From Pseudooceanicola algae (GTDB lineage: Bacteria > Pseudomonadota > Alphaproteobacteria > Rhodobacterales > Rhodobacteraceae), in NCBI RefSeq assembly GCF_003590145.2, contig NZ_CP060436.1, forward strand, positions 654,001-718,000: a DNA stretch of 64,000 nt, written 5' to 3'. A model generated the notes under the pieces. The model saw only the letters and a program-made list of their open reading frames with translations, did not search any database and was not told the origin of the DNA. Shown one piece after another: positions 33,928-46,729 of this stretch. Each line of letters opens with the position of its first letter. The first letter of the stretch is position 1. The position numbers and the translations under genes are program-made.

Positions 33928-34770
33928 TCAGCGCCGTTGCCCGCGCGCCATGAAGGCCAGCTTTTCGAACAGATGCACGTCCTGTTCGTTCTTCAGCAGG
34001 GCGCCGTGCAGCCGGGGCAGGGCATTGGCGCCGTCGCGCTTCAGGTCCTCGGGGGTCAAATCCTCTGCCAGCAACAGCTTGAGCCAGTCGAGCACCTCGC
34101 TGGTCGAGGGCTTCTTCTTCAGGCCGCGGGTGTCGCGCAGTTCGTAGAACTGCGTCAGGGCGGTGGTCAGCAGGGCGGGCTTGATGCCGGGGTGATGGAC
34201 CTCGACGATGGCGCGCATTGTCTCCATGTCCGGGAAGCGGATGTAATGGAAGAAACAACGCCGCAGGAAGGCATCGGGCAGTTCCTTTTCGTTGTTCGAG
34301 GTGATGATGACGATGGGCCTCAGCCGCGCCCGCACGGTTTCACCGGTCTCGTAGACATGGAATTCCATCCGGTCGAGCTCTTGCAGCAGGTCGTTGGGGA
34401 ATTCGATATCCGCCTTGTCGATCTCGTCGATCAGCAGCACCACCCGTTCATCGGCCGTAAAGGCCTGCCACAGCTTGCCGCGCCGGATATAATTGCCCAC
34501 GTCCTGCACCCGCGCATCGCCCAGTTGGCTGTCGCGCAACCGGCTGACGGCATCGTATTCATAAAGGCCCTGCTGCGCCCGTGTGGTGGACTTGATCGAC
34601 CATTCGATCATGTCGAGGCCCAAGGATTGGGCAATCTGGCGGGCCAGCTCGGTCTTGCCCGTTCCGGGCTCCCCCTTGACCAGAAGCGGCCTCTGCAATG
34701 TGACGGCAGCATTCACGGCAATGGTAAGATCTTCCGTGGCAACGTAATTTTCCGTACCTTCAAAGCGCAT
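33928..34770 (-). CDS. MoxR-family AAA+ ATPase
   Basis: A 280-residue ATPase. Walker A GEPGTGKT lies at residues 33-40, Walker B VVLLIDEIDKAD near 107-118, sensor 1 IVIITSNNEKELPDAFLRRC follows, and the arginine finger lies in the same segment. The C-terminal lid ends at TSEVLDWLKLLLAEDL. MoxR proteins remodel partner proteins together with VWA-domain cofactors; the CoxE-like VWA gene downstream on the same strand fits. The 160 bp between this gene and the GNAT gene hold only the duplicated start region. Confidence 0.93.
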   Translation of the reverse strand: MRFEGTENYVATEDLTIAVNAAVTLQRPLLVKGEPGTGKTELARQIAQSLGLDMIEWSIKSTTRAQQGLYEYDAVSRLRDSQLGDARVQDVGNYIRRGKLWQAFTADERVVLLIDEIDKADIEFPNDLLQELDRMEFHVYETGETVRARLRPIVIITSNNEKELPDAFLRRCFFHYIRFPDMETMRAIVEVHHPGIKPALLTTALTQFYELRDTRGLKKKPSTSEVLDWLKLLLAEDLTPEDLKRDGANALPRLHGALLKNEQDVHLFEKLAFMARGQRR

Positions 34771-34993
34771 CTGGCAGGGGTCTTTCCTTGGGGCAGGCCC
34801 GGTAAAGGCCGGGGCAGCGGCGGGTTCATTTCGAAACGATAAAGTTTTCCGCTTTGTCCCGCAATCGGCGATGGTTAACGGGATTTGACTAGTGACAAGC
34901 GATTTCGAACAGTTTAAGCCCCGCGGCAGGGGACCCTACGGCCCGCCAAGGCAATCGCGCGCGACGGGCTGAGGACTAGTTTGGGAGCCGCTG

Positions 34994-35416
34994 ATGAAAG
35001 CAGAAACTTTCCTTGATGACGACTATCGTCCCGCCGAGGACGAGCCGTTCATGAACGACCGCCAGCTCGAATATTTCCGTCGCAAGTTGCACGCCTGGAA
35101 GGATGATCTTCTGGCCGACAGCCGTGATACGGTCGAAGGGCTTCAAGAGAACACACGCAATATCCCGGATGTCGCCGACCGGGCCTCGGAAGAGACCGAT
35201 CGCGCGCTGGAGTTGCGCACGCGGGACCGTCAGCGCAAGCTGGTGTCCAAGATCGATTCCGCCCTGCGCCGGATCGACGAGGGGGAATATGGGTATTGCG
35301 AAGTGACCGGAGAGCCGATCTCGCTCAAGCGTCTCGACGCCCGGCCGATCGCCACGATGAGCCTGGAAGCCCAGGAACGTCATGAACGTCGTGAACGGGT
35401 CCATCGCGACGACTGA
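34994..35416 (+). CDS. dksA: DksA-type RNA polymerase-binding transcription factor
   Basis: A 140-residue protein. The coiled-coil (about residues 28-95) has the tip NIPDVADRAS with Asp59 and Ala64 in the places needed for action on RNA polymerase. The C-terminal zinc-finger region keeps only one cysteine (Cys102); the other three positions are Thr105, Thr121 region and Ser, so it probably folds without zinc. A single-cysteine DksA active in ppGpp control is known from Rhodobacter sphaeroides (RSP2654). GGGAGC precedes the start. The 223-bp upstream spacer has TTGACT at about 34885 as a possible -35. Confidence 0.92.
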   Translation: MKAETFLDDDYRPAEDEPFMNDRQLEYFRRKLHAWKDDLLADSRDTVEGLQENTRNIPDVADRASEETDRALELRTRDRQRKLVSKIDSALRRIDEGEYGYCEVTGEPISLKRLDARPIATMSLEAQERHERRERVHRDD

Positions 35417-35676
35417 AGACTTGCGGTGCCGTTTGACTCGGCGCGGCCTGCCCTGGGCAAATCCCCGCTCTGGCCGGGCGGGCGGATGACAGGCACACGA
35501 TGCTATCACGATGACGCGCGACATGAGACGCCGGGGCTTTTGCTCCGGCGTTGTTACTTGCAAATCCGGCGTATCCGGGTCCATATCCCGGCGCGTCCCT
35601 CCGACCCGGTCAGCCTGATGCGGCAGGTCTCGGGGACCCTGGCTTTGCGGCGGACAAGACCTTGGAATTGAACGAG

Positions 35677-36855
35677 ATGAAGATCGCCGTGATTGGCGCA
35701 GGTATCGGCGGCCTCGCGGTCGCGCGGGCTCTGGCCCTGCGCGGGGCCCAGGTGACGGTGCTGGAGCAATCCGAAGCGATCCGCGAGGTGGGCGCCGGCT
35801 TGCAGATCAGCCCCAATGGCGCAGCGGTGCTGCGTGGCCTCGGGCTTGATCCGGCCGGGATCGGCCAAAAAGCCCGCGCGATCAATCTTCTGGACCACAC
35901 CGGACGGCCGGCGCTGCGGCTCGATCTGGCGCGTCAGGCGGCGACCCGGCCTTCGGACTATTACTTCTGTCACCGCGCCGACCTGATCTGTGCCCTGGCC
36001 GAAAGCGCCCGCACCGCCGGGGTTCGCATCCGCCTGTTGCAAAAGGTCAAGGAGGTGATCCCCGGAACACCGCCCGAGATCCTTGTCTGCAACACCGCGC
36101 GGCTGCACCCTGACCTGGTAATCGGCGCGGATGGCCTGCATTCCTGCCTGCGGAACGCGCTGCTCGGCGATAGCCGCGCAGGCTTCACCGGGCAGGTCGC
36201 CTGGCGCGCCGTCGTCCCGCTGGACAGCGCGCCCACGCCCGAAGTCCGGCTGCACATGGGCCCCGGCCGCCACCTGGTGACCTACCCGCTGCGTCAGGGC
36301 GCACTGATGAATATCGTCGCTGTCGAGGAACGCGCGGCCTGGACCCCGGACGGCTGGTCCCATGCGGATGACCCCGGCAACCTGCGCCGCGCCTTTGCCG
36401 GCTTCCCGCCCGAAATCCGCCAGCTTCTGGCCCGCGTCACCGAAACCAACCTCTGGGGTCTGCACCGCCACCCCGTCGCCCCCCGCTGGACCGCCGGCAA
36501 TTGTGCCCTCCTGGGCGACGCTGCCCATCCGACACTGCCCTTCATGGCCCAGGGGGCCAACCTGGCGCTGGAAGATGCCTGGGTGCTGGCCGAAAGCCTC
36601 GCCACCGGTCTAGCCGCAGGAAGACGTCCCGCCGATGCCCTCAGGCACTACGAACAGGCCCGCGTGCCGCGGATCCGCCGCGCCATCGAAGCGGCCAACC
36701 GCAATGCCTGGAAATATCACCTGCGCTTCCCGCCGCTGCGCGCCGTCGCGCATACGGCCCTGCGCCTCAGTGACCGCCTGGCCCCAGACCTCATGCTCCG
36801 CCAATTCGACTGGCTTTACGGTCACGACGTCACCGGCGGTCATAGCCTCGTCTGA
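35677..36855 (+). CDS. FAD-dependent aromatic-ring monooxygenase
   Basis: A 392-residue flavoprotein of the PHBH/salicylate-hydroxylase group. The dinucleotide motif GxGxxG is at Gly7, Gly9 and Gly12 (IAVIGAGIGGLAVAR), the DG motif is in LVIGADGLHSCLRNAL, and the second FAD motif is GDAAHPTLPFMAQGANLALEDA (about residues 280-300). It resembles 3-hydroxybenzoate 6-hydroxylase-like enzymes; the substrate cannot be told. ATG 35677 begins the FAD fold directly; the ribosome-binding site is weak. The 260-bp spacer from dksA holds no gene. Confidence 0.9.
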   Translation: MKIAVIGAGIGGLAVARALALRGAQVTVLEQSEAIREVGAGLQISPNGAAVLRGLGLDPAGIGQKARAINLLDHTGRPALRLDLARQAATRPSDYYFCHRADLICALAESARTAGVRIRLLQKVKEVIPGTPPEILVCNTARLHPDLVIGADGLHSCLRNALLGDSRAGFTGQVAWRAVVPLDSAPTPEVRLHMGPGRHLVTYPLRQGALMNIVAVEERAAWTPDGWSHADDPGNLRRAFAGFPPEIRQLLARVTETNLWGLHRHPVAPRWTAGNCALLGDAAHPTLPFMAQGANLALEDAWVLAESLATGLAAGRRPADALRHYEQARVPRIRRAIEAANRNAWKYHLRFPPLRAVAHTALRLSDRLAPDLMLRQFDWLYGHDVTGGHSLV

Positions 36856-36886
36856 CCGCGCGCGGCCCTGCCGGGACTTCCTTCAA

Positions 36887-36951
36887 GTTTCCCTGTTGCA
36901 AATATCCCGGGGTGAATTGAGGCCGCAGGCCTCAAGAGGGGCAGCGCCCCT
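36887..36951. repeat. Dispersed intergenic repeat, full copy 2
   Basis: Nearly identical to 22184-22247: GTTTCCCTGTT, AAATATCCCGGGGTGAATTGAGGCC, a short GAGGCCG/AGGCCTC hairpin and AGGGGCAGCGCCCCT. As in copy 1 it lies between two convergent gene ends (monooxygenase and xthA). Confidence 0.78.
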
Positions 36952-36980
36952 TCTGACCTTCACGCGCCCGAGACCTCAGT

Positions 36981-37790
36981 TCACAACGCCAGATCGACCC
37001 AGACAGGCACGTGATCCGATGGCTTCTCGCGCCCCCGAATGCCTGCATCGATCCCGCAGTCGGTGACCAGATCGGCGCATTGCGGCGTCATCAGCATATG
37101 GTCGATCCGGATGCCGTCGTTCTTGTTCCAGGCCCCGGCCTGATAGTCCCAGAAGGTGTAATGCCCCGGTGCTGGCATCCTGGTGCGGATGATCTCGGTA
37201 AACCCAAGGTTCACCACGGCGCGCCAGGCGGCGCGGCTTTCGGGGCGGAACAACGCGTCTTCGCGCCACTTCTCGGGATTGGCGGCATCCTCTTCCTGCG
37301 GAATGATATTGTAATCCCCCAGCATCACCGCCGGTTCCTCGGCAGCCAGCAGCGCCTCGGCACGGGTCTTCAGCCGCGCCATCCAGGCAAGCTTATAGGC
37401 GTATTTGCCCCCCGCGACCGGCGTGCCATCGGCCTCCAGCTCGACCGGATTGCCATTGGGCAGGTAAAGCCCGCAGATCCGCAGCGCCGTTCTGTCTCCC
37501 ACCACGGTGGCCTCGATCCAGCGCGCCTGTTCGTCGCTCTCGTCGCCCGGCAAGCCGCGCGTCACGTCCTCCAGCGGCAGTTTCGACAGGATCGCCACCC
37601 CGTTAAAGCTTTTCTGCCCATGGGTTTCGACCTGATAGCCGCGCTCTTCGAACATTTCGCGCGGAAACCCTTCGTCCACAGATTTGATCTCCTGCAGGAC
37701 CACCACGTCGGGCTGGGCCTCGTCCAGCCAATCCCCCAGGGCTTTGATGCGGGCCTTGATCCCATTGATGTTGAACGTGGCGAGCTTCAT
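36981..37790 (-). CDS. xthA: Exodeoxyribonuclease III
   Basis: A 269-residue Mg-dependent AP endonuclease/3'-exonuclease of the EEP fold. MKLATFNINGIKARIKALGDWL has the Asn of the N-terminal motif; VVVLQEIKSVDEGFP carries the metal-binding Glu; GDYNIIPQEED and the final SDHVPVWVDL give the Asp-Asn and Asp-His catalytic pairs. ATG 37790 has AAGGAA upstream. It repairs abasic sites in the cytoplasm. The gene stands alone. Confidence 0.95.
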   Translation of the reverse strand: MKLATFNINGIKARIKALGDWLDEAQPDVVVLQEIKSVDEGFPREMFEERGYQVETHGQKSFNGVAILSKLPLEDVTRGLPGDESDEQARWIEATVVGDRTALRICGLYLPNGNPVELEADGTPVAGGKYAYKLAWMARLKTRAEALLAAEEPAVMLGDYNIIPQEEDAANPEKWREDALFRPESRAAWRAVVNLGFTEIIRTRMPAPGHYTFWDYQAGAWNKNDGIRIDHMLMTPQCADLVTDCGIDAGIRGREKPSDHVPVWVDLAL

Positions 37791-38200
37791 GGCGGATTCC
37801 TTCGACCTGTTGCCTCCTGATGGCAAGGCGTGACAGCGATGGCAAGGGAAAGGGGTGCCTTCAACCCGCACCCGATGGGGCAGAACGGGCGAAACGCCAT
37901 GTGACGTATAGCGGCGTCTTCGCTGGCGCTGATTCGGCAGGTTTCCGGGTGTCCGGTACCGATTCGCGTCAACCCTGACGCGCATGCTGCCCGGCCAGGG
38001 CCCGACATGACGCGAATCCGGCTAAGTAATTAAAATTTCAGCAACAATCTGTTCTTGATGTGTTAACAAACTTCTGTCCCGCGAAGCTCATGTGAATAAA
38101 CACATGCTGCAATGCAGAATTGAATCCTGTGCTTGAAAATCAGGTGAGACGTGCAAGCCTCAAGGCATCAAACCGGTCAATTTCAACCAATAGGTGTCAC
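37791..38200. promoter_or_regulatory. 410-bp AT-rich regulatory spacer upstream of the repeat-protein gene
   Basis: Between the divergent xthA and the repeat-protein gene. From about 38020 to 38130 the DNA is markedly AT-rich (for example TAATTAAAATTTC at 38026) against a GC-rich background. It contains an inverted repeat CATGTG-N6-CACATG (38089-38106) directly followed by CTGCAATGCAG (38107-38117). I see no convincing -35/-10 pair. AGGTG lies just before ATG 38201. No gene is visible here. Confidence 0.5.
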
Positions 38201-38671
38201 ATGAGTGCAATTCGCAACCAACTGAAAGTTCAGGACATTTCGGCCTCTGATTGGCAGGATCTGCTGTCGGGCGAAGCCACCGGCATGATGTCCTCCGGCT
38301 CGGCCCCCAGCCTGTCCAGCGACCCGCTTCTGGGCGACGCCGTCGAGGCCTTCTCCTCCGGTTCCGCGCCGCTGACCTCGGACGCCACTTCTGGCGATGC
38401 CGTCGAGGCCTTCTCCTCCGGTTCCGCGCCGCTGACCTCGGACGCCACTTCTGGCGACGCCGTCGAGGCCTTCTCCTCGGGCTCCGCGCCGCTGACCTTG
38501 GACGCCACTTCTGGCGATGCCGTCGAGGCCTTCTCCTCGGGTTCCGCGCCGCTGACCTCGGACGCCACCTCTGGCGATGCCGTCGAAGCTTTCTCCTCGG
38601 GTTCCGCGCCGCTGACCGCCTCCCGCAGCCTGCGCGGTGATGCCAGCGGAAGCTTCTCCTCGGGCAGCTGA
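38201..38671 (+). CDS. Repeat protein with exact 20-residue units; putative precursor peptide
   Basis: A 156-residue acidic protein without Cys, Tyr or His. Residues 1-30 form a non-repetitive head (MSAIRNQLKVQDISASDWQD...) ending GMM, without a classical signal peptide. From residue 51 to 130 four units of exactly 20 residues follow (FSSGSAPLTSDATSGDAVEA, with one Ser-to-Leu change), preceded and followed by partial units; the chain ends FSSGS. SSGSAP occurs six times, plus a terminal SSGS. The pattern suits a multi-core peptide precursor or a disordered secreted protein. A hairpin terminator follows, then an unknown protein and a DMT transporter on the same strand. I cannot name a family. 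Confidence 0.8.
   Translation: MSAIRNQLKVQDISASDWQDLLSGEATGMMSSGSAPSLSSDPLLGDAVEAFSSGSAPLTSDATSGDAVEAFSSGSAPLTSDATSGDAVEAFSSGSAPLTLDATSGDAVEAFSSGSAPLTSDATSGDAVEAFSSGSAPLTASRSLRGDASGSFSSGS
38333..38617 (+). repeat. In-frame tandem 60-bp repeat inside the repeat-protein gene
   Basis: Period of exactly 60 bp, four full units (38351-38410, 38411-38470, 38471-38530, 38531-38590) plus partial flanks. Units differ at only a few sites (for example TCC/TCG for Ser, GAC/GAT for Asp, one TCG to TTG giving Leu), so the array is recently expanded or kept uniform by recombination. Copy number probably varies between strains. Confidence 0.92.
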
Positions 38672-38690
38672 TCTCGAGACTTGCGACGAG

Positions 38691-38740
38691 CGGGCGCGGG
38701 GTCTCTCCGCGCCCGAAAACCTTGTTGCGCTAAGGTTTTT
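38691..38740 (+). terminator. Double hairpin with T-run after the repeat-protein gene
   Basis: First stem CGGGCGCGG/CCGCGCCCG (38691-38699 and 38707-38715), then AAAACCTT/AAGGTTTT (38716-38723 and 38732-38739) ending in five T residues. The second is a good intrinsic terminator. Because the next gene begins 43 bases later with a good ribosome-binding site and no obvious promoter, partial readthrough would give much more of the repeat protein than of the downstream proteins. Confidence 0.72.
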
Positions 38741-38782
38741 CGAACGCAGACCCAAATTTTCCGCGTCAAAAGGGGCCCCAAG

Positions 38783-39967
38783 ATGTCCAACGTGATTCCT
38801 TTCACCCTGTCTCGTCGCCATGCGCCCACGCCATTGCCGCGCCAGGGGGACCGAGCAGGACGTCAGGCTGCATTGATCGCGCTTTTTGCGCAGAAGCGCC
38901 GGGGGCAGGGAGATGTCTTCTGGTTGAAGGAGAACGCCGAACTGCTGAATATTCTCGAATCCACCGGCGCAGGCCGTCGGCGGGCCGGCATTCCCGCGGC
39001 GCCCTTGCCCGACGGCGCCCTGTCCCCGCATCAGGCCCTCTATGACCGGATCGAGGAACGGCTGCGGTTCTTTCCGCAATATTACCGCTTTTTCCTGTCG
39101 ATCTGCCTCGACCTCGAAGACCTTGGCTTCGGTGGTTCCAAGGGCGAGGCTCTGGTGCAACAGGCCCTGCGCGTCGGCCTGGCCGATGCCGAACTTTCCG
39201 ACCTGCAGCGCGCCGAAGCCCGCCGGTTGATGCAGCGACGCGGCCGGGATCCGATTGCCGATAGCACCGGGCTGACCGCACGCCTGCTGGCCTTTGCAGG
39301 GCGCAGCGCGACCTTTGCCGTGCCGAATAAAAAGGCCGCTTACGAATTGACCCATATCTGTTTCTATCTCAGCGATTACGGGCGTCTTCAGACGGATTTC
39401 CCGCGCGCCGTGCAGAAAAGTCTTAATTTTGCCGGAACCCTCGCTTATCTTGATGCCAATGCAGATCTGCTTGCCGAGATCTGCGTCGCGCTGCGCCAGG
39501 CCGGTCAAACGCCGCCCCAAGCTTGGGAAAGCTGGCTCGCAGTCGAAACAGCCCGGTTCCAGCTTCTGGACAGCGGCAATGGGGGCGGAGCGGCCGGAGG
39601 GGTCATGGCGCAGGACGGTTATCACGAATTCCTGGTCAGTAACTGGGCTCTTGGCGTGTCCGGGGACGATGCCTTCGCCCATGATGTGCCGGAAGGCCGG
39701 GTGCAGTTCCGCACCCCGCGGCGCGCTGCCAGCCCGTTGCTGGCCATGTCCCGGCACCTGTTGGAAGATGAACGTCGCTCGGGCGATTGGGAGGTCATGC
39801 GCGGTCCCCTGGCGGAAACGCTCTGGCAGGCGGAACCCCAGGCGCTGGACCTGCTGGCCGATGCCGAAGCGGCCTGCGAGGATTTCCCGGCCTTCTTCGA
39901 AACTTTCGCTCGCGCGGGGTCTGCCGCAATTGGCACGCGGGCGCATCTGCACGGCGTGCCGCTCTGA
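38783..39967 (+). CDS. Unrecognised helical protein between repeat protein and transporter
   Basis: A 394-residue, mostly helical, soluble protein without signal peptide. Notable segments are RFFPQYYRFFLSICLDLEDLGFGG (about 95-118), YELTHICFYLSDYGR (187-201) and DGYHEFLVSNWAL (278-290), whose His, Asp and Tyr could form an active or binding site. The ELTH...FYLSDYG motif reminds me of DUF6895-type proteins found near peptide natural-product genes, but this is unverified. ATG 38783 has AAGGGG upstream. Its TGA overlaps the start of the DMT transporter (TGATG), so the two are produced together. It may bind, mature or deliver the repeat protein. Confidence 0.75.
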   Translation: MSNVIPFTLSRRHAPTPLPRQGDRAGRQAALIALFAQKRRGQGDVFWLKENAELLNILESTGAGRRRAGIPAAPLPDGALSPHQALYDRIEERLRFFPQYYRFFLSICLDLEDLGFGGSKGEALVQQALRVGLADAELSDLQRAEARRLMQRRGRDPIADSTGLTARLLAFAGRSATFAVPNKKAAYELTHICFYLSDYGRLQTDFPRAVQKSLNFAGTLAYLDANADLLAEICVALRQAGQTPPQAWESWLAVETARFQLLDSGNGGGAAGGVMAQDGYHEFLVSNWALGVSGDDAFAHDVPEGRVQFRTPRRAASPLLAMSRHLLEDERRSGDWEVMRGPLAETLWQAEPQALDLLADAEAACEDFPAFFETFARAGSAAIGTRAHLHGVPL

Positions 39968-40896
39968 TGGCGCGCTTTGGCTCCTCTGCCGCGCTGATGG
40001 GTGCGGTTCTGGTGCTGGCCTACACGGCGCTGATCTCCGGCGCTGATGCGATCACCAAGTTCATCGCCAGCGGCTATGCCGCCCCGCAGCTTTTTGCAGT
40101 TTCGGGTGGCCTGGTGGCGCTGTTCTGCCTTGCAAGCGAGCTGGCCTCGGGAGGGCGCAGCGCCAATGTGGTCCGCACGACGCAGCCCCTGGCGATGGCC
40201 CTGCGCAGCCTTGCAACGCTGATTGCCGCGACCTGCTATTTCTATGCGTTCCGCGATCTGCCGCTTGCCGAAGTCTTCGTCTTCATCGGGCTGATGCCGA
40301 TCTTCGCCGGGCTGATGTCCGGTCCGATCCTGGGCGAAAAGGTCAACCTGGCGGTCTGGATCGCGCTCGGGACCGGGGCGGTCGGGGTCATGTGCCTGTT
40401 TCCCCAGGGCCTGGGGCATATCCGCACCGGCCATCTGACGGCTGCGATGGCCTGTCTGGCCGGCACTTTATCGATGGTGATGGCGCGCCATATCGGGCGG
40501 CGTGAAACCAACGCGCTGGCCCAGGTCTTTTATCCCAATCTGGCGATCATGCTGGTCATGGGTGCGATCCTGCCCTTCGTCTGGCAACCGATGTCCCTTG
40601 TGGATCTCGGCTTCGTGGTTGGCTATGCCGCCCTGTTGTTCCTTGCCCGCTGGCTTCTGGTAATCGCCTTGCGCCACCTTGCCGCCTATGTGGTGACGCC
40701 GCTTATGAACCTGCAATTCGTCTGGATGACGCTTCTGGGCGCGCTTTTCTTCGGCGAATTCCCGAGCGCGAACATCTTCCTGGGATCGGCGATCGTGATT
40801 GGATCGGGTCTTTACCTGATCGCCGATCAGATTGGCAGCCAGCGCCGCAGCGCCAAGCTCGCGGCCTCGGTTCCCGACGCCACGCCGGCGGAATAA
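39967..40896 (+). CDS. EamA/DMT superfamily transporter
   Basis: A 309-residue membrane protein with about ten transmembrane helices arranged as two EamA halves: first half includes YTALISGADAITKFIA and LRSLATLIAATCYFYAFRDLPLAEVFVFIGLMPIF, second half ALRHLAAYVVTPLMNLQFVWMTLLGALFFGEFP. The conserved (A/L)PLAEVF and GE(F/K) elements are present. DMT proteins export metabolites such as amino acids or nucleobases. The start overlaps the stop of the unknown protein by one base. In this setting it may export a small product of the neighbouring genes; a 15-kDa unprocessed protein would be too large for this family. Confidence 0.88.
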   Translation: MARFGSSAALMGAVLVLAYTALISGADAITKFIASGYAAPQLFAVSGGLVALFCLASELASGGRSANVVRTTQPLAMALRSLATLIAATCYFYAFRDLPLAEVFVFIGLMPIFAGLMSGPILGEKVNLAVWIALGTGAVGVMCLFPQGLGHIRTGHLTAAMACLAGTLSMVMARHIGRRETNALAQVFYPNLAIMLVMGAILPFVWQPMSLVDLGFVVGYAALLFLARWLLVIALRHLAAYVVTPLMNLQFVWMTLLGALFFGEFPSANIFLGSAIVIGSGLYLIADQIGSQRRSAKLAASVPDATPAE

Positions 40897-40982
40897 TCGG
40901 TTCGGTCTAGCGCCAAATTGTAAATGGAAGGCGGTTGCGTCGAGCCTCGCAGGGGCTTCGCCCCGCACCTTTGACAAGGTGC

Positions 40983-41054
40983 CCCCCAGAGTATTTCGGG
41001 CCAGATGACAGGGGAGGACCGCTCTTTATCATCTGGCCCGAAATACTCTGGGGG
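40983..41054. repeat. Long hairpin repeat element, copy A
   Basis: A perfect 26-bp inverted repeat: left arm 40983-41008 (CCCCCAGAGTATTTCGGGCC...), right arm 41029-41054, loop of 20 bases. It is flanked by smaller hairpins GGGGCTTCGCCCC (from about 40953), GCACCTT/AAGGTGC (about 40965-40982) and GGGGGC/GCCCCC (about 41071-41085). It separates the convergent transporter and Fe-S carrier genes. A diverged copy is at 59731-59800. Confidence 0.85.
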
Positions 41055-41091
41055 AGCCTCCGCGGGAGGCGGGGGCAAAGCCCCCTAAACT

Positions 41092-41409
41092 TCACATCGA
41101 AAAGGAGGTGCCGCAGCCGCAGGAAGAGGTCGCGTTCGGGTTTTCGATCACGAAACGCGCGCCGATCAGTTCCTCGCTGAAATCGATTGTCGCCCCGGAC
41201 AGGAAGGGCAGGGAGGTTGCATCGACGACGACCTTCTGTCCCTGACCTTCGATCACCAGATCGTCGGAGGCGATTTCATCCAGCTTGATCTCGTATTGAA
41301 ACCCAGAACAGCCGCCGCCCTCGACGGCGACGCGCAGGGCCTGATCGCCCGCCCCGATTTCGGCAAGGCGGGTAAAGGCGCGGTCTGTGACTTTCGGCGG
41401 CAGATTCAT
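41092..41409 (-). CDS. erpA: A-type iron-sulfur cluster carrier (HesB/IscA/ErpA family)
   Basis: A 105-residue protein with the three conserved cysteines: Cys34 in GGGCSGFQYEI and Cys97/Cys99 in the C-terminal SSCGCGTSF. LPFLSGATIDF is the family's central motif. It passes Fe-S clusters to apoproteins in the cytoplasm. ATG 41409 is preferred over ATG 41427 because GAGGA lies eight bases upstream of it. ErpA is the most likely member, but IscA or SufA cannot be excluded from sequence alone. It is divergent from dgt. Confidence 0.88.
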   Translation of the reverse strand: MNLPPKVTDRAFTRLAEIGAGDQALRVAVEGGGCSGFQYEIKLDEIASDDLVIEGQGQKVVVDATSLPFLSGATIDFSEELIGARFVIENPNATSSCGCGTSFSM

Positions 41410-41493
41410 TGGTGCATCCTCTGACATTTTGCATGTCCGTTACAGCCAATATAAGGAGTAAGGCAAAAGGCGACAAGAAGTCGAGGGACCGAC

Positions 41494-42705
41494 ATGACCA
41501 CAGTATTTGCCTCCGACCCGTCTGCCAGCCGTGGACGGCTTTATCGCGAGGACCTCAGCTCCTTCCGCTCGCCCTTCCAGCGCGACCGGGATCGGATCAT
41601 CCATGCCTCGGCCTTTCGGCGGCTGAAGCACAAGACACAGGTCTTCATTGAACACGAGGGTGATTACTTCCGCACGCGGCTGACCCATTCCATCGAGGTC
41701 GGGCAGGTGGCGCGCACGATGTGCGGGGCGCTTGGCCTTGATCAGGAACTGACCGAAGCCGTGGCCCTGGCCCATGACCTTGGGCATCCCCCCTTCGGGC
41801 ATACCGGCGAGGACGCGCTGCACGCATTGATGGCGCCCTATGGGGGATTCGACCACAACGCCCAGGCCATCCGCATCGTCACCAGTCTCGAGCGGACCTA
41901 TGCCGAATGGGACGGGCTGAACCTGACCTGGGAAACCCTGGAAGGTATCGCCAAGCACAACGGTCCGGTTACCGGGACGATCCCCTATGCCTTGGCGGAT
42001 TACAACGCTCTGGATGATCTGGAACTGGCCACCCATGCCTCGGCAGAGGCGCAGGTGGCGGCCCTCTCCGACGATATCGCCTATAACAACCACGATCTGC
42101 ATGACGGGTTGCGCGCCGAGTTGTTCTCGACCGAGGAACTGGCCGAACTGCCGATCCTGAACGAATGTTTCGCCGAGGTGGATCGGCTGTACCCCGGCCT
42201 CAACCTTTATCGTCGCCGGCACGAGGCGTTGCGGCGGTTCTTTGGTGTGCTGGTCGAGGATGTGATTACCGTGACCCGCGCCAATCTGACCGCGCTTGAT
42301 CCGCAGAGTGTCACCGACATCCGCCTTGCCGGACGCATGATGGTGCAGTTCTCGCCCGCGCTCTGGAGCGATCTCAAGGTGATCCGGAAGTTCCTGTTCC
42401 ATCGTATGTACCGCGCCCCCGAGGTAGTCGAGATGCGCGCCAAGGTGACCCGGATCATCCACGAGCTTTTCCCGCTGTTCATGGATCACCCGGAGGTGCT
42501 GCCCAAGCAATGGCGCAAGGATGTCAAGGCGGTCGAGGGTGATCGGACCGCGCTGGCCCGGATCGTTTGCGATTACATCTCGGGGATGACGGACCGGTTT
42601 GCCATAGTTGAACATGCGCGGTTGACCGGACAGGATCCTGAGCCCGGTCTGCGGGCTTCCGGTCCCGGCCATATCCGCTACGCCGAGCGGGTCGAGGAAG
42701 ACTGA
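41494..42705 (+). CDS. dgt: Deoxyguanosinetriphosphate triphosphohydrolase-like protein
   Basis: A 403-residue HD-domain phosphohydrolase that releases triphosphate from dNTPs. The start MTTVFASDPSASRGRLYREDLSSFRSPFQRDRDRIIHASAFRRLKHKTQVF is the family N-terminus; metal ligands are in RLTHSIEVGQVAR (His), HDLGHPPFGHTGE (His-Asp) and AALSDDIAYNNHDL (Asp). Length matches the type-2 subgroup common in alphaproteobacteria. The gene order dgt-argS-SPOR-nagZ-scpAB on one strand is a known roseobacter arrangement. Confidence 0.95.
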   Translation: MTTVFASDPSASRGRLYREDLSSFRSPFQRDRDRIIHASAFRRLKHKTQVFIEHEGDYFRTRLTHSIEVGQVARTMCGALGLDQELTEAVALAHDLGHPPFGHTGEDALHALMAPYGGFDHNAQAIRIVTSLERTYAEWDGLNLTWETLEGIAKHNGPVTGTIPYALADYNALDDLELATHASAEAQVAALSDDIAYNNHDLHDGLRAELFSTEELAELPILNECFAEVDRLYPGLNLYRRRHEALRRFFGVLVEDVITVTRANLTALDPQSVTDIRLAGRMMVQFSPALWSDLKVIRKFLFHRMYRAPEVVEMRAKVTRIIHELFPLFMDHPEVLPKQWRKDVKAVEGDRTALARIVCDYISGMTDRFAIVEHARLTGQDPEPGLRASGPGHIRYAERVEED

Positions 42706-42828
42706 AGCGCGGGGCATCCGGATGCTGGAAGAACCCGAGGCGCGGGGCCGGCACGGCCTGCCGCCCGCCTTTTCATTGACCTCGCGAATATGGCTGCTAA
42801 ACCGCGCGGATACCTTCAGGAAAGCGTC

Positions 42829-44571
42829 ATGAACCTCTTTACCGATATCCGCAGCCTCGTTCTGGAAAGCCTTACCGCCCTGCAGGCACGGGGGGATCTG
42901 CCCGAAGGCCTGGTCTTCGACAGCGTGACCGTCGAGCCGCCGCGCGATCCGGCCCATGGCGACATGGCGACCAATGCGGCGATGGTGCTGGCGAAACCCG
43001 CCGGGATGAAGCCCCGCGACATCGCCGAGGCCCTCGCGGCCCTGTTGATCGAGGATCCGCGCATCGACAGCGCCGAGGTTGCCGGTCCGGGCTTTCTGAA
43101 CCTGCGTCTGGCCGAGGCGATCTGGGGCGAAATCGTGACCGCCGCGCTGCACGAGGGCACCGGCTATGGCCGTTCGGTCATGGGCGAAGGTACGCGTGTA
43201 AATGTCGAATATGTCTCGGCAAATCCCACCGGACCGTTGCATGTCGGCCACACGCGCGGCGCGGTCTTTGGTGATGCGCTGGCAGAATTGCTGGCCTATG
43301 CGGGCTATGGCGTCACGCGGGAATACTACATCAATGACGGCGGTGCCCAGGTCGATGTCCTGGCGCGCTCGGTCTACCTGCGCTACCTCGAAGCCCATGG
43401 GCGCGAGGTCGAATTTGCCGATGGCACCTATCCCGGCGACTACCTGATCGAGACCGGCGCGGCGCTGAAGGACCGGGTGGGCGACGCATATGTCGACCAG
43501 CCCGAAGAGGTCTGGTTGCAAGATATCCGCAGCTTCGCCACCGAGGCGATGATGGACCTGATCCGCGAAGATCTGGCACTGCTGAACGTGCAGATGGATG
43601 TCTTCTATTCCGAAAAGAGCCTTTACGGCACCGGCCGCATCGAAGAAGCAATCGAGACCCTGCGTGCAAAGGGCCTGATCTATCGGGGCGTGCTGGAACC
43701 GCCCAAGGGCAAGATGCCCGAAGACTGGGAACCCCGCGAGCAGACCCTGTTCAAGAGCACCGAACATGGCGATGACGTTGACCGTCCGATTGCGAAATCC
43801 GATGGCGCCTGGACCTATTTCGCGCCCGATATTGCCTACCATTATGATAAGGTTTCCAGAGGCTTCGACCAGCTTATTGATGTGTTCGGTGCCGATCACG
43901 GCGGCTATGTCAAACGCATGAAGGCGGCCGTTTCGGCGCTGTCGGATGACCGCGTGCCGCTGGACATCAAGCTGTGCCAATTGGTCAAGCTGTTCAAGAA
44001 CGGCGAGCCCTTCAAGATGTCCAAGCGGGCCGGGACCTTCATCATGCTGCGCGACGTGGTCGAACAGGTTGGCGCCGATGTGACCCGCTTCGTGATGCTG
44101 ACGCGCAAGAACGACGCGCCGCTCGATTTCGACTTCGACAAGGTGCTGGAACAGAGCCGCGAGAACCCGGTGTTCTACGTGCAATATGCCCATGCGCGGA
44201 TTTGCTCTGCCCTGCGCAAGGCAGAGGCGGCGGGAATCGCCTGCGGCGATGCCGACCTGCTGGCTACCCCGACCAGCGTGACACATCCGTCCGAACTGGC
44301 TGTTGCGCGCAAGCTGGCCGAATGGCCGCGCCAGGTGGAAATCGCCGCCCGCACCCATGAGCCGCATCGGATCGCCTTCTACCTCTACGAACTCGCCTCC
44401 GATCTGCATGCGCTCTACAATCGCGGCAACGAGGAAACCCAGTTGCGCTTCGTCCAGGAAGATGCGCCGCAGGTCAGCCAGTCGAAATTGGCCCTGGCCC
44501 GCGCCGTGACCGTTGTCATTTCGGCTGGATTGGGTATCCTTGGGGTCACTCCGGCGAAAGAAATGCGATAA
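42829..44571 (+). CDS. argS: Arginyl-tRNA synthetase
   Basis: A 580-residue class I synthetase. The HIGH motif appears as HVGHTRGA after [13 protein letters not shown] (about residues 127-146), the KMSKS counterpart as KMSKRAGTF (about 397-405), with the N-terminal Add-1 domain from [11 protein letters not shown] and the DALR anticodon-binding domain at the C-terminus ([24 protein letters not shown]). ATG 42829 has AGGAAAG upstream. It charges tRNA-Arg in the cytoplasm. Confidence 0.97.
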
Positions 44572-44665
44572 CGCAGCAGCCGGGGCGAGCAGTTGGCAAA
44601 ACCGGAATATCGGCCGGAGACTCCATTAAAGAGGGGCCGGCAGAGCCCCGGCAGGCAGAGGCGTT

Positions 44666-45607
44666 ATGGCAGAATATCAGGCGGACGGGCGGTATCAGCC
44701 CGTCGAAACGGCTTCCTTTGGGAAAATCGTCACCTGGGTCGGGGGGATCCTCTCGGTCGCGATGGTGGCCGGGGTGGTCTTCTGGGGCTACAAGATGGTG
44801 ATGCGGGATGTCTCCGGTGTGCCGGTGGTTCGCGCGATGGCGGGCGATGTGCGCCGCATGCCCGAGGATGCCGGTGGCCAGACGGCCGATTTCCAGGGGC
44901 TTGCGGTGAACCGTGTCGCTGCTGGCGAAGGGGCTGACGGGGCCGCCGATCGTGTCAGCCTTGCGCCCGAACCGCAGCGCCTTGGCCAGGAAGGCATGAC
45001 CGAACGCGAATTGGCCGTTGCCCTGCGCATCAAGCAGGACGCGGCGCCAACTGGCGGTGCCGATCTGGGCCGCGACGATAGTGCCGCGCTGGCCTCGCTT
45101 GTGATCGAGGGCGCGGAAAACACCCCCCGCAATGCGCCGCTGACCGAAGATTATGTTGATGCCGCCCCCGAGGAACTGGTCGAGGCCGCGCTGCCCGAGT
45201 CGGATGGGGCAGGGACGCCAACGGCTGTCGCGGCCATCGGTGCCTATTCGGTGCGCCCGCGCATGCGCCCCACGGATTTGGCCGAGGTCCGTGCCGCGGC
45301 CATCGCCAGCCCGCCCGCGCCGGTGCAAAGCTTTGTCGCTTCGGCGGATGTGCCCATGGGCACGCAGCTGGCGCAGCTCGGCTCCTTCGGGTCCGAAGAA
45401 ATCGCACAGCAGGAATGGACCCGCCTGTCGCGCAAGTTCGACATCTATCTCGACGGTAAGCAACGGGTGATCCAGCGGGCCGAGGTCGGTGGCCGGATCT
45501 ACTACCGCCTGCGCGCCATGGGCTTTGCCAGCCTCGGGGATACCGAACGCTTCTGCGCGGCACTGGTCGCCAGCAACGCCGATTGCATCGCGGTCGTGAC
45601 CCGGTAA
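44666..45607 (+). CDS. SPOR domain-containing membrane protein
   Basis: A 313-residue bitopic protein: short cytoplasmic N-terminus, transmembrane helix at about residues 21-43 (IVTWVGGILSVAMVAGVVFWGY), a long acidic Ala/Pro-rich periplasmic linker (about 60-230), and a C-terminal SPOR domain (about 236-313: GTQLAQLGSFGSEEIAQQEWTRLSRKFD, then RAEVGGRIYYRLRAMGFAS). SPOR domains bind denuded peptidoglycan at division sites, so a role in septation is likely. It lies between argS and nagZ, both on the same strand. Confidence 0.92.
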   Translation: MAEYQADGRYQPVETASFGKIVTWVGGILSVAMVAGVVFWGYKMVMRDVSGVPVVRAMAGDVRRMPEDAGGQTADFQGLAVNRVAAGEGADGAADRVSLAPEPQRLGQEGMTERELAVALRIKQDAAPTGGADLGRDDSAALASLVIEGAENTPRNAPLTEDYVDAAPEELVEAALPESDGAGTPTAVAAIGAYSVRPRMRPTDLAEVRAAAIASPPAPVQSFVASADVPMGTQLAQLGSFGSEEIAQQEWTRLSRKFDIYLDGKQRVIQRAEVGGRIYYRLRAMGFASLGDTERFCAALVASNADCIAVVTR

Positions 45608-45721
45608 TACCGGGTCCGCCATGCGGGATCGCGGGCCCATTTCGTCAGGGCCCGGACAGCGTGATCCCTCTGCCCGATCTGCCGAACCAGCCCCCTTCGC
45701 CCTATCAGACAGGAGCCGCCC

Positions 45722-46729
45722 ATGCCCTTCGGAGCCACGATCCTAGATCCCACCGGGCCGGTTCTGACGGCCGAGGAAAAGCAGTTCTTTCGTGATGCGG
45801 ACCCCTATGGGTTCATCCTGTTCGCCCGCCATATCGAAACCCCGGATCAGATCCGCGCACTTTGCAGCGACCTGCGCGATACGGTAGGGCGCAATGCGCC
45901 GATCCTGCTTGATCAGGAAGGCGGCCGGGTGCAGCGCCTTGGCCCGCCCGATTTCCGGCAATGGGATGCGCCGCTGGATTTTGCCGGGCGCGCCAGCAAC
46001 CCGGTGCAGGCCATGTACCTGCGCTATGCGATCATCGCCGCCGAAATGCGGTCTGTCGGGATCGACGTGAATTGCGCGCCGCTGGTCGATGTGGCGGACG
46101 AACAGACCCACCCGTTCCTGCGCAACCGCTGCTACGGCATGGATGCGCCGACGGTTGCGGGTCTGGGCCGTGCCGTGTCGATGGGCTTGCTCGCCGGTGG
46201 TGTCCTGCCGGTGGTCAAGCATATGCCGGGGCATGGTCGGGCGCGCAGCGACAGCCATTTTGATCTGCCCCGCGTCACGGCCCCGCTGGAGGCCCTGCAC
46301 GAGGTCGATTTCGCCCCCTTCAAGGTGCTGAACGACCAGCCCATGGGGATGACCGCCCATATCGTTTACGAGGCTCTGGACCCCGAGGCGCCCGCCACCC
46401 TGTCGCCGCGCGTCATGCAGGTGATCCGCAACGACATCGGTTTCGACAACCTGATCATGACCGACGATATCTCGATGAAGGCCCTGTCGGGCAGCCTGTC
46501 GGACCTTGCCCTCGGATCGCTTGCGGCGGGCTGTGACGTGGTTCTGCTTTGCAATGCTTCGCTTGAGGATCGCCGCGCCGTGGCCGAGGCTGCCGGCACG
46601 ATGTCGCCCCCCGCCCAGACCCGCGCCGAACGCGCGCTGCTGTCGCGCCCCGACACCGCCCCCAAGCTTGACATCGAGGAATTGGAGGCCAAGCTGTCCG
46701 CTCTTGTGGACGGACCGCTATATGGCTGA
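45722..46729 (+). CDS. nagZ: Beta-N-acetylhexosaminidase
   Basis: A 335-residue family 3 glycosidase that removes GlcNAc from anhydromuropeptides during cell-wall recycling in the cytoplasm. FILFARHIETPDQ and DQEGGRVQRL are early signatures; LPVVKHMPGHGRARSDSHFDLP (Lys166, His167, Asp177, His179) is the NagZ loop with its Asp-His dyad; the nucleophile is Asp248 in NLIMTDDISM. The end overlaps scpA by eight bases. Confidence 0.95.
   Translation: MPFGATILDPTGPVLTAEEKQFFRDADPYGFILFARHIETPDQIRALCSDLRDTVGRNAPILLDQEGGRVQRLGPPDFRQWDAPLDFAGRASNPVQAMYLRYAIIAAEMRSVGIDVNCAPLVDVADEQTHPFLRNRCYGMDAPTVAGLGRAVSMGLLAGGVLPVVKHMPGHGRARSDSHFDLPRVTAPLEALHEVDFAPFKVLNDQPMGMTAHIVYEALDPEAPATLSPRVMQVIRNDIGFDNLIMTDDISMKALSGSLSDLALGSLAAGCDVVLLCNASLEDRRAVAEAAGTMSPPAQTRAERALLSRPDTAPKLDIEELEAKLSALVDGPLYG

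Follow-up and report, generated by a model that had tools for sequence, protein, structure and literature searches.

In a 64,000-nucleotide stretch of the Pseudooceanicola algae genome (NZ_CP060436.1, positions 654,001 to 718,000; hereafter the window), we find a three-gene unit at 38201 to 40896 of the forward strand that encodes, in order, a 156-residue repeat protein, a DUF6902 protein, and an EamA transporter. We read this unit, with a probability of roughly 0.6, as a multi-core system of the ribosomally synthesized and post-translationally modified peptide (RiPP) kind, in which DUF6902 would modify the cores of the repeat protein, probably by epimerization at the alpha-carbon, and EamA would export the product where it is present. 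The reading of the first gene as a precursor is well supported; the gene is linked to DUF6902 across the genomes searched, its cores are uniform at the protein level, and DUF6902 is homologous to DUF6895. An earlier sequence-only reading had also proposed a RiPP-like system, which stands in its precursor and in its putative maturation neighbor; the core is not SSGSAP as such, Ser/Thr-richness is not required of a core, and neither the exporter nor a stable hairpin after the first gene is a constant feature.

The first gene (38201..38671, +) encodes a leader-like head followed by seven xSSGS cores, and the protein stops exactly at the last core. Its translation bears out the earlier description of a 156-residue repeat protein devoid of Cys, Tyr, and His; the tandem repeats are likewise present, in a number other than the four described, as five GDAVEAFSSGSAPLT units and seven cores are counted. 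The cores start at residues 30 (MSSGS), 51, 71, 91, 111, 131, and 152 (FSSGS), a spacing of 20-21 residues, and the DNA carries direct repeats at a 60-nt spacing (38273-38632) with at most 96% identity to the reference copy. The gene is present in one copy in the source genome and its product is rich in Ser, Ala, and Gly, with a mean pLDDT of 56 and no confident fold upon structure prediction. For this protein and its relatives, judgement enters into the choice of start codon, into the definition of the leader motif, and into which units are read as deviating.

The association of the repeat protein with DUF6902 is consistent in three samples. DUF6902 is detected at E 0.001 in 24 members of a 60-genome scan and lies over the family cut-off in 23, all of which carry a repeat protein upstream (for L002 and L004, as read from the longer regions L130 and L131). 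A species-genome scan, from which the best 80 of 337 relatives were taken, i.e., those nearest to the window DUF6902 and many of them from metagenome bins, places the gene of a repeat protein immediately before DUF6902 in 80/80 loci, with L066 and L097 cut by a contig end; among these best 80, the nearest named relatives belong to Pseudooceanicola and other roseobacters. Finally, in a Rhodobacteraceae sample of 394 genomes from 393 genera, DUF6902 occurs in 108 genomes and a repeat-protein profile matches in 99, all of them among the 108, whereas none of the 286 DUF6902-negative genomes is matched; the repeat protein is thus tied to its neighbor, as had been proposed. The profile was built from 25 DUF6902-linked proteins and can miss divergent ones: six of the nine DUF6902 genomes without a match hold variant arrays (YIAGL, MMCCS, MMSCS, ALSPSC, LMPTSN, MAQSFS), two (G479 and G714) show no repeat array beside DUF6902, and in the ninth (G574) DUF6902 lies at a contig end. 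The gene arrangement by which a RiPP system is identified, a precursor linked to the gene of a tailoring enzyme, is found in 80/80 loci of the best 80 of 337 and in 99/108 genomes, with DUF6902 as the putative tailoring enzyme. Within the samples searched, over-cut-off DUF6902 is confined to Rhodobacteraceae.

The cores are far more uniform than the sequence that separates them. With the aromatic residue of the core numbered as position 0, and in 1156 within-protein pairs of units whose flanking sequences are under 50% alike (diverged-flank pairs), agreement is 1.00 at +1, 1.00 at +2, 0.99 at +3, and 0.99 at +4, compared with 0.47, 0.83, 0.44, and 0.42 for random pairs between proteins. In the linker, from +7 to +11, agreement between proteins is 0.16-0.21; within proteins it is 0.13-0.19, low because the pairs were picked for diverged flanks. 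This analysis took only units with up to two mismatches from the majority core (609 matches in 80 proteins); an alternative anchor (G, five residues, hydrophobic) yields 627 sites, 52 of them unlike the majority core, among which we recognize by eye five distinct real deviating units (one in L067, one in L080, three in L096), the remainder being, also by eye, linker matches or sites outside the gene. A second set of 80 regions, after 6 were set aside, 16 found to duplicate the first set, and one (L201) left unclassed, provides 57 new proteins, of which 48 have uniform cores and nine were flagged, the flag of L260 being false; mixed cores occur in L123 and in the set-aside region L244. With both sets combined, 137 proteins display 42 majority core types, and a minority of the proteins is mixed. 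The nearly uniform tetrapeptide within each protein, together with the DUF6902 neighbor in 80/80 loci of the best 80 of 337, sustains the proposal that the repeats are precursor cores, the core being F-x-x-x-x instead of SSGSAP. The cores usually have Ser, Thr, or Cys beside the aromatic residue, and FTNWC and FPSWS are further types; a core is not bound to be Ser/Thr-rich, as had been thought, since types such as YIAGL, LMPTSN, and ALSPSC exist.

Could this uniformity merely reflect recently duplicated repeats and gene conversion, with no meaning for the product? Near-identical tandem units in some arrays, those of the window and of L044 among them, are what such a process would leave, yet the core is common to units whose linkers have diverged, and equal core residues are written in different codons in 47% of cases (54% in diverged pairs). 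Since about half of the equal residues differ in codon, the uniformity is kept at the protein level, beyond recent copying, and we regard duplication and conversion as a highly improbable explanation. A further argument comes from L041 and L044, whose DUF6902 proteins are 95.8% identical while six of six cores read FSSGS in the former and seven of seven FTSGS in the latter; the core codons of the two final units are the same but for the one base that changes Ser to Thr. On a DUF6902 tree of 78 rows and 21 core types, 27 core changes are counted, against a minimum of 20 and a mean of 50.9 with shuffled labels, so the core is inherited yet repeatedly changed, each time across the whole array. 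This unusual evolutionary pattern points to a recognized product, and array-wide switching is the strongest sign suggesting that the core is what something recognizes. The protein terminus falls exactly at a core in 70/80 repeat proteins, which is compatible with proteolytic release, and the number of units per protein ranges from 2 to 17 in the first set and from 2 to about 20 overall.

The second gene (38783..39967, +) encodes a 394-residue protein that had been described as lacking a recognized domain. It is in fact a DUF6902 protein (PF21843; 442.8 bits against a cut-off of 27, E 1e-132, residues 19-378) and also exceeds the cut-off of DUF6895 (PF21836; 80.3 bits against 23.8, E 2e-22), the latter match being partial (profile positions 10-244 of 289). 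The profile-profile comparison that had been suggested for this protein connects the same two families: hhalign aligns the DUF6902 profile with a profile of eight DUF6895 proteins over 184 columns at 96% probability (E 4.6e-9) and 22% identity. The eight DUF6895 proteins have 11 invariant residues apart from the start Met, and eight of these residues are identical in DUF6902 (Y187, H191, F194, G200, D228, E232, Y280, and H281); all but F194, which is present in at least 90%, are invariant over 76 DUF6902 rows, and position 198, Asp or Glu in DUF6902, is a conservative match to a further invariant DUF6895 residue. The AlphaFold2 model from these 76 rows is almost all-helical with a mean pLDDT of 90; the structure prediction once suggested for this protein thus gives a confident model, without a fold match in the PDB at E 0.001 or better, and a profile search of PDB sequences with DUF6902 returns only two chance-level matches. 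One DUF6895 member is called a lasso-peptide epimerase in the title of a paper (Shi et al., ACS Catal. 2026, as listed among the references of PMC13352647), which lends weight to the earlier idea that this neighbor is a maturation candidate. From the DUF6895 homology and the conserved residues, two His together with Asp/Glu, we infer that DUF6902 is probably an epimerase that acts by inversion at the alpha-carbon.

The genomic setting of DUF6895 resembles that of DUF6902. The eight loci that we read (L119, L120, L121, L128, L274, L275, L276, and L277; several phyla) come from four Pseudomonadota genomes and from four plasmids of Streptomyces, Kitasatospora, and Pseudalkalibacillus, and each has a small precursor-like open reading frame (ORF) upstream, with another gene intervening in L277. 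By eye, seven of the eight small ORFs have a common leader-like stretch and an aromatic-containing C-terminal part, with sequences such as GPWFV, YVLAWxxYVLVV, NYVYK, and GWWAVV. These ORFs have the look of RiPP precursors; those of L119, L120, and L121, which were searched against named families, have no match over cut-off.

As a plausible mechanism, the first gene product would serve as the precursor, in which a short head that resembles a leader (commonly M-T/S-A-L/Q-R-K) precedes units of mostly 20-21 residues, each carrying the private core F-x-x-x-x. DUF6902 would bind the precursor and modify every core, most likely by L-to-D inversion of an alpha-carbon, with acid/base residues that may be drawn from H191, H281, D228, E232, Y187, and Y280. 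A protease whose gene lies elsewhere would then separate the units, and in genomes with an EamA gene this transporter would export the product. The core, being uniform in any one strain but different from strain to strain, would be the recognized part of the product, and could act as a signal, a self-recognition mark, or a targeted bioactive peptide. The modification and its type, the cleavage, the export, and the function are the steps that we infer.

Several observations weigh against this mechanism. Deviating cores occur in 13 proteins (L067, L080, L096, L123, L198, L206, L216, L219, L230, L244, L266, L269, and L270). Two residues invariant in the DUF6895 set, E50 and P139, are unmatched in DUF6902, and the divergent 215-residue DUF6895 protein of L128 lacks part of the conserved residues. 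Foldseek finds no PDB match to the DUF6902 model at E 0.001 or better, so the proposed active site is without structural confirmation; the best of 443 matches at E up to 10 is a HEAT-repeat protein at E 0.17. The evidence that a DUF6895 protein is an epimerase is the title of the paper cited above, and by Pfam the three-gene unit includes neither a protease nor a known RiPP maturase. The EamA gene is missing from 6 of 63 loci that are flanked by 6 kb on both sides (L065, L076, L089, L093, L100, and L103) and a homology search does not detect it in 19 regions of the second set of 80, of which 16 have erpA next; moreover, 12 genomes with an EamA-less unit have no EamA match above 36% identity elsewhere.

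Some of these points would be accommodated if the unit were a multi-core RiPP system in which DUF6902 performs not epimerization but a cross-link, a dehydration, a backbone change, or recognition and processing. The Ser, Thr, or Cys usually found beside the aromatic residue would suit such chemistry, the homology to DUF6895 is remote at 22% identity, functions can shift within a superfamily, and there are the two unmatched invariant residues. We nevertheless consider it unlikely, as the eight identical residues include both His and the Asp/Glu pair, and cores as different as YIAGL, LMPTSN, FTNWC, and FPSWS are too varied for a side-chain-specific reaction; because of this variety, a reaction at the backbone alpha-carbon, as in epimerization, fits better. 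The repeat protein could instead be a disordered structural, adhesive, or sponge-like protein that works uncut, with DUF6902 as its partner or chaperone and EamA as a bystander, in keeping with its Ser/Ala/Gly-rich composition and mean pLDDT of 56, with a broad range of copy numbers (from 2 to 17 for the first-set proteins), with the missing protease, and with the inconstant EamA. A strain-private uniform tetrapeptide amid drifting linkers is not expected of such a protein, 70/80 of the proteins end exactly at a core, inspection of the head shows no signal peptide (no predictor was run), and the superfamily of the partner has a member titled a lasso-peptide epimerase, making this alternative quite unlikely in our view.

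The third gene (39967..40896, +) encodes a 309-residue EamA/DMT transporter, a probable exporter and an accessory member of the unit (PF00892; 55.7 bits over two stretches, cut-off 28.2). As described before, the stop of the DUF6902 gene (TGA) overlaps the EamA start (ATG), the two having one base in common. EamA matches of 50-64% identity occur in four unit-positive genomes, and the best in 21 negative genomes is 36%. Given its absence from 6/63 fully flanked loci and 19/80 further regions, EamA is common but dispensable, and the constant pair is the precursor and DUF6902. The expectation that the three genes stay together is therefore correct for precursor and DUF6902 (80/80 loci of the best 80 of 337), and EamA is a frequent member (57/63) but not a constant one.

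Multi-core precursors with a leader, tandem cores, and a linked modifying enzyme are familiar from cyanobactins and graspetides, and the window unit resembles them in its leader-like head, its tandem cores, and its linked putative modifying-enzyme gene; it differs in having no ATP-grasp, YcaO, radical SAM, or protease domain and in cores that are identical within a protein and private to lineages. The yeast alpha-factor precursor, too, carries tandem copies of one peptide that differs between species, and the roseobacter precursor shares with it the several copies of one short peptide varying between species, whereas inspection reveals neither a signal peptide nor Kex2-like sites in it, and it is linked to a DUF6902 gene. 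The unit is not a lasso peptide cluster, as neither a cyclase (C) nor a leader peptidase (B) is among the Pfam matches of the unit or of its nine neighbors at 33931-46726 (AAA, DksA, FAD-binding, Exo_endo_phos, Fe-S_biosyn, HD, Arg-tRNA synthetase, SPOR, and Glyco_hydro_3; the rest of the genome was not searched). The lasso-peptide epimerase MslH would be alike in reaction type only, alpha-carbon epimerization of a ribosomal precursor as proposed for DUF6902; MslH has a calcineurin-like fold with a Ca(II) site (PMC10406935), whereas DUF6902 is predicted to be almost all-helical. DUF6895 is closer, by homology, by the common Y-H-F-D/E-G, D-E, and Y-H residues, and by the small gene resembling a precursor that precedes it in all eight loci examined; DUF6902 differs from it in its multi-core arrays and its restriction to Rhodobacteraceae in the samples searched. 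Literature searches on DUF6902 and the commonest core strings found no paper on this system, those on MslH, roseobacter RiPP epimerases, multicore RiPPs, cofactor-independent peptide epimerases, and EamA with RiPPs found nothing on it among the matches listed, and the roseobacter peptide pheromone literature has nothing on it among the matches listed (15 of 57); for DUF6895, one review was found (PMC13352647). Our data suggest that many marine roseobacters have a family of processed peptides, signal-like or bioactive, that has not been described before. If the proposed mechanism is right, about a quarter of the sampled genera of Rhodobacteraceae (107/393), an abundant marine group, make this peptide family, DUF6902 gains a function, the DUF6895 epimerase family widens to multi-core precursors, and the 42 core types constitute a natural library accepted by one enzyme family.

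The unit is located between genes that we take to be xth on one side and erpA-dgt on the other (Pfam: Exo_endo_phos, Fe-S_biosyn, and HD/HD_assoc). In the 63 fully flanked loci, xth is matched in 63, EamA in 57, erpA in 58, and dgt in 58. Among 20 DUF6902-negative genomes, xth is found in 18, with erpA within the 1.5-kb flank of xth in 16/18 at a distance of 30-1347 bases (below 700 in 10/16); these 18 xth loci contain no DUF6902 or EamA match at E 1e-6. Because the negative genomes have xth and erpA without the unit or its promoter boxes, the unit appears to be gained and lost, own promoter included, at one site. A mobile system was considered and rejected for lack of any match to the window DUF6902 at E 1e-5 among 72,556 plasmid records.

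Between the first two genes, a GC-rich hairpin with arms GGGCGCGG/CCGCGCCC is followed by a weaker hairpin with a T run (38690..38744, +), and the fold z of the whole gap is -1.6. At the place of the proposed terminator there is a hairpin, while a consensus terminator scan calls no terminator between the two genes; nor is the hairpin general, as 77 corresponding gaps have a median fold z of -0.29, with z < -1.5 in 20. A stable hairpin after the first gene is therefore frequent, not general, among relatives, and attenuation or RNA stabilization is a possible role. Upstream, a DnaA-box-like TGTGAATAA (38091..38099, +) lies 110 bases before the precursor start; it is the reverse complement of TTATTCACA, which fits the DnaA-box consensus TTATNCACA. 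Across the upstream regions of L026-L105, DnaA-box-like sites cluster near -186 and -110, the latter being the position of the window form. Exact TGTGGATAA, the reverse complement of the DnaA box TTATCCACA, occurs in 40/78 of these regions and TTATCCACA in 8/78 (0.0 and 0.1 in mononucleotide shuffles), TGCAAGC near -46 in 36/78 (1.7), and GATTC or GAATC in 77/78 (38.1), a contrast that the shuffles overstate because the regions are related by descent. Upstream of xth, neither exact TGTGGATAA nor TTATCCACA is present in the 18 loci of DUF6902-negative genomes. Judging by these motifs, the precursor may be controlled by DnaA and the GcrA/CcrM circuit. A bolder picture, which we hold to be possible if doubtful, would be a widespread roseobacter identity code, in which each lineage produces a private tetra- or pentapeptide in many copies, given a D-residue by DUF6902 as a new helical epimerase family and exported as a signal or self-recognition mark, with selection switching the cores of a whole array at once upon a change of code and the DnaA-box-like promoter perhaps tying its production to the cell cycle. 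Because of the DnaA-box-like sites, the locus was also considered as oriC and rejected: on this contig dnaA maps to 2.74 Mb, far from the window at 0.65-0.72 Mb, and the GC skew has only a local dip.

Family profile searches gave no convincing Pfam or NCBIfam match for the window repeat protein and nothing over cut-off for a group of ten proteins, made up of the repeat proteins of seven relatives and three of the small ORFs that precede DUF6895; a second search covered repeat proteins of seven relatives and the small ORFs upstream of DUF6895 in L119 and L120. Its matches of the L085 repeat protein to UBA_HYPK (E 3e-13), DUF7372 (E 4e-12), and DUF6284 (E 1e-7), and of the L068 protein to TRASH_ZMYM4 (E 1e-6), were rejected as composition effects because they have whole-protein scores only, all single stretches lying below cut-off. 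Individual arrays depart from the usual architecture. The L047 precursor (2579-2971) has collapsed 8-residue repeats, (FTSGSTAL)n, suggesting that the least unit is a core plus a few residues, and the Salinihabitans/Shimia precursors (L074, L078, L094, and L102) combine the usual spacings with some of 8 residues (FTSGLVQMFTSGL), so that cores come in pairs. Roseovarius litorisediminis (L080, 9576-11056) has a DUF6902 frame that ends after only 140 codons and a precursor with one deviating core, as if the peptide system were decaying. Between EamA and erpA, a long palindrome with CCAGAGTATTTCGGGCCAGATGA spans 40971-41073. Five of the six matches of an Rfam scan, all below gathering scores, fall on it, and as the element has 17 matches in the genome (up to two mismatches) versus 0 for a control, it is a dispersed REP-like element.

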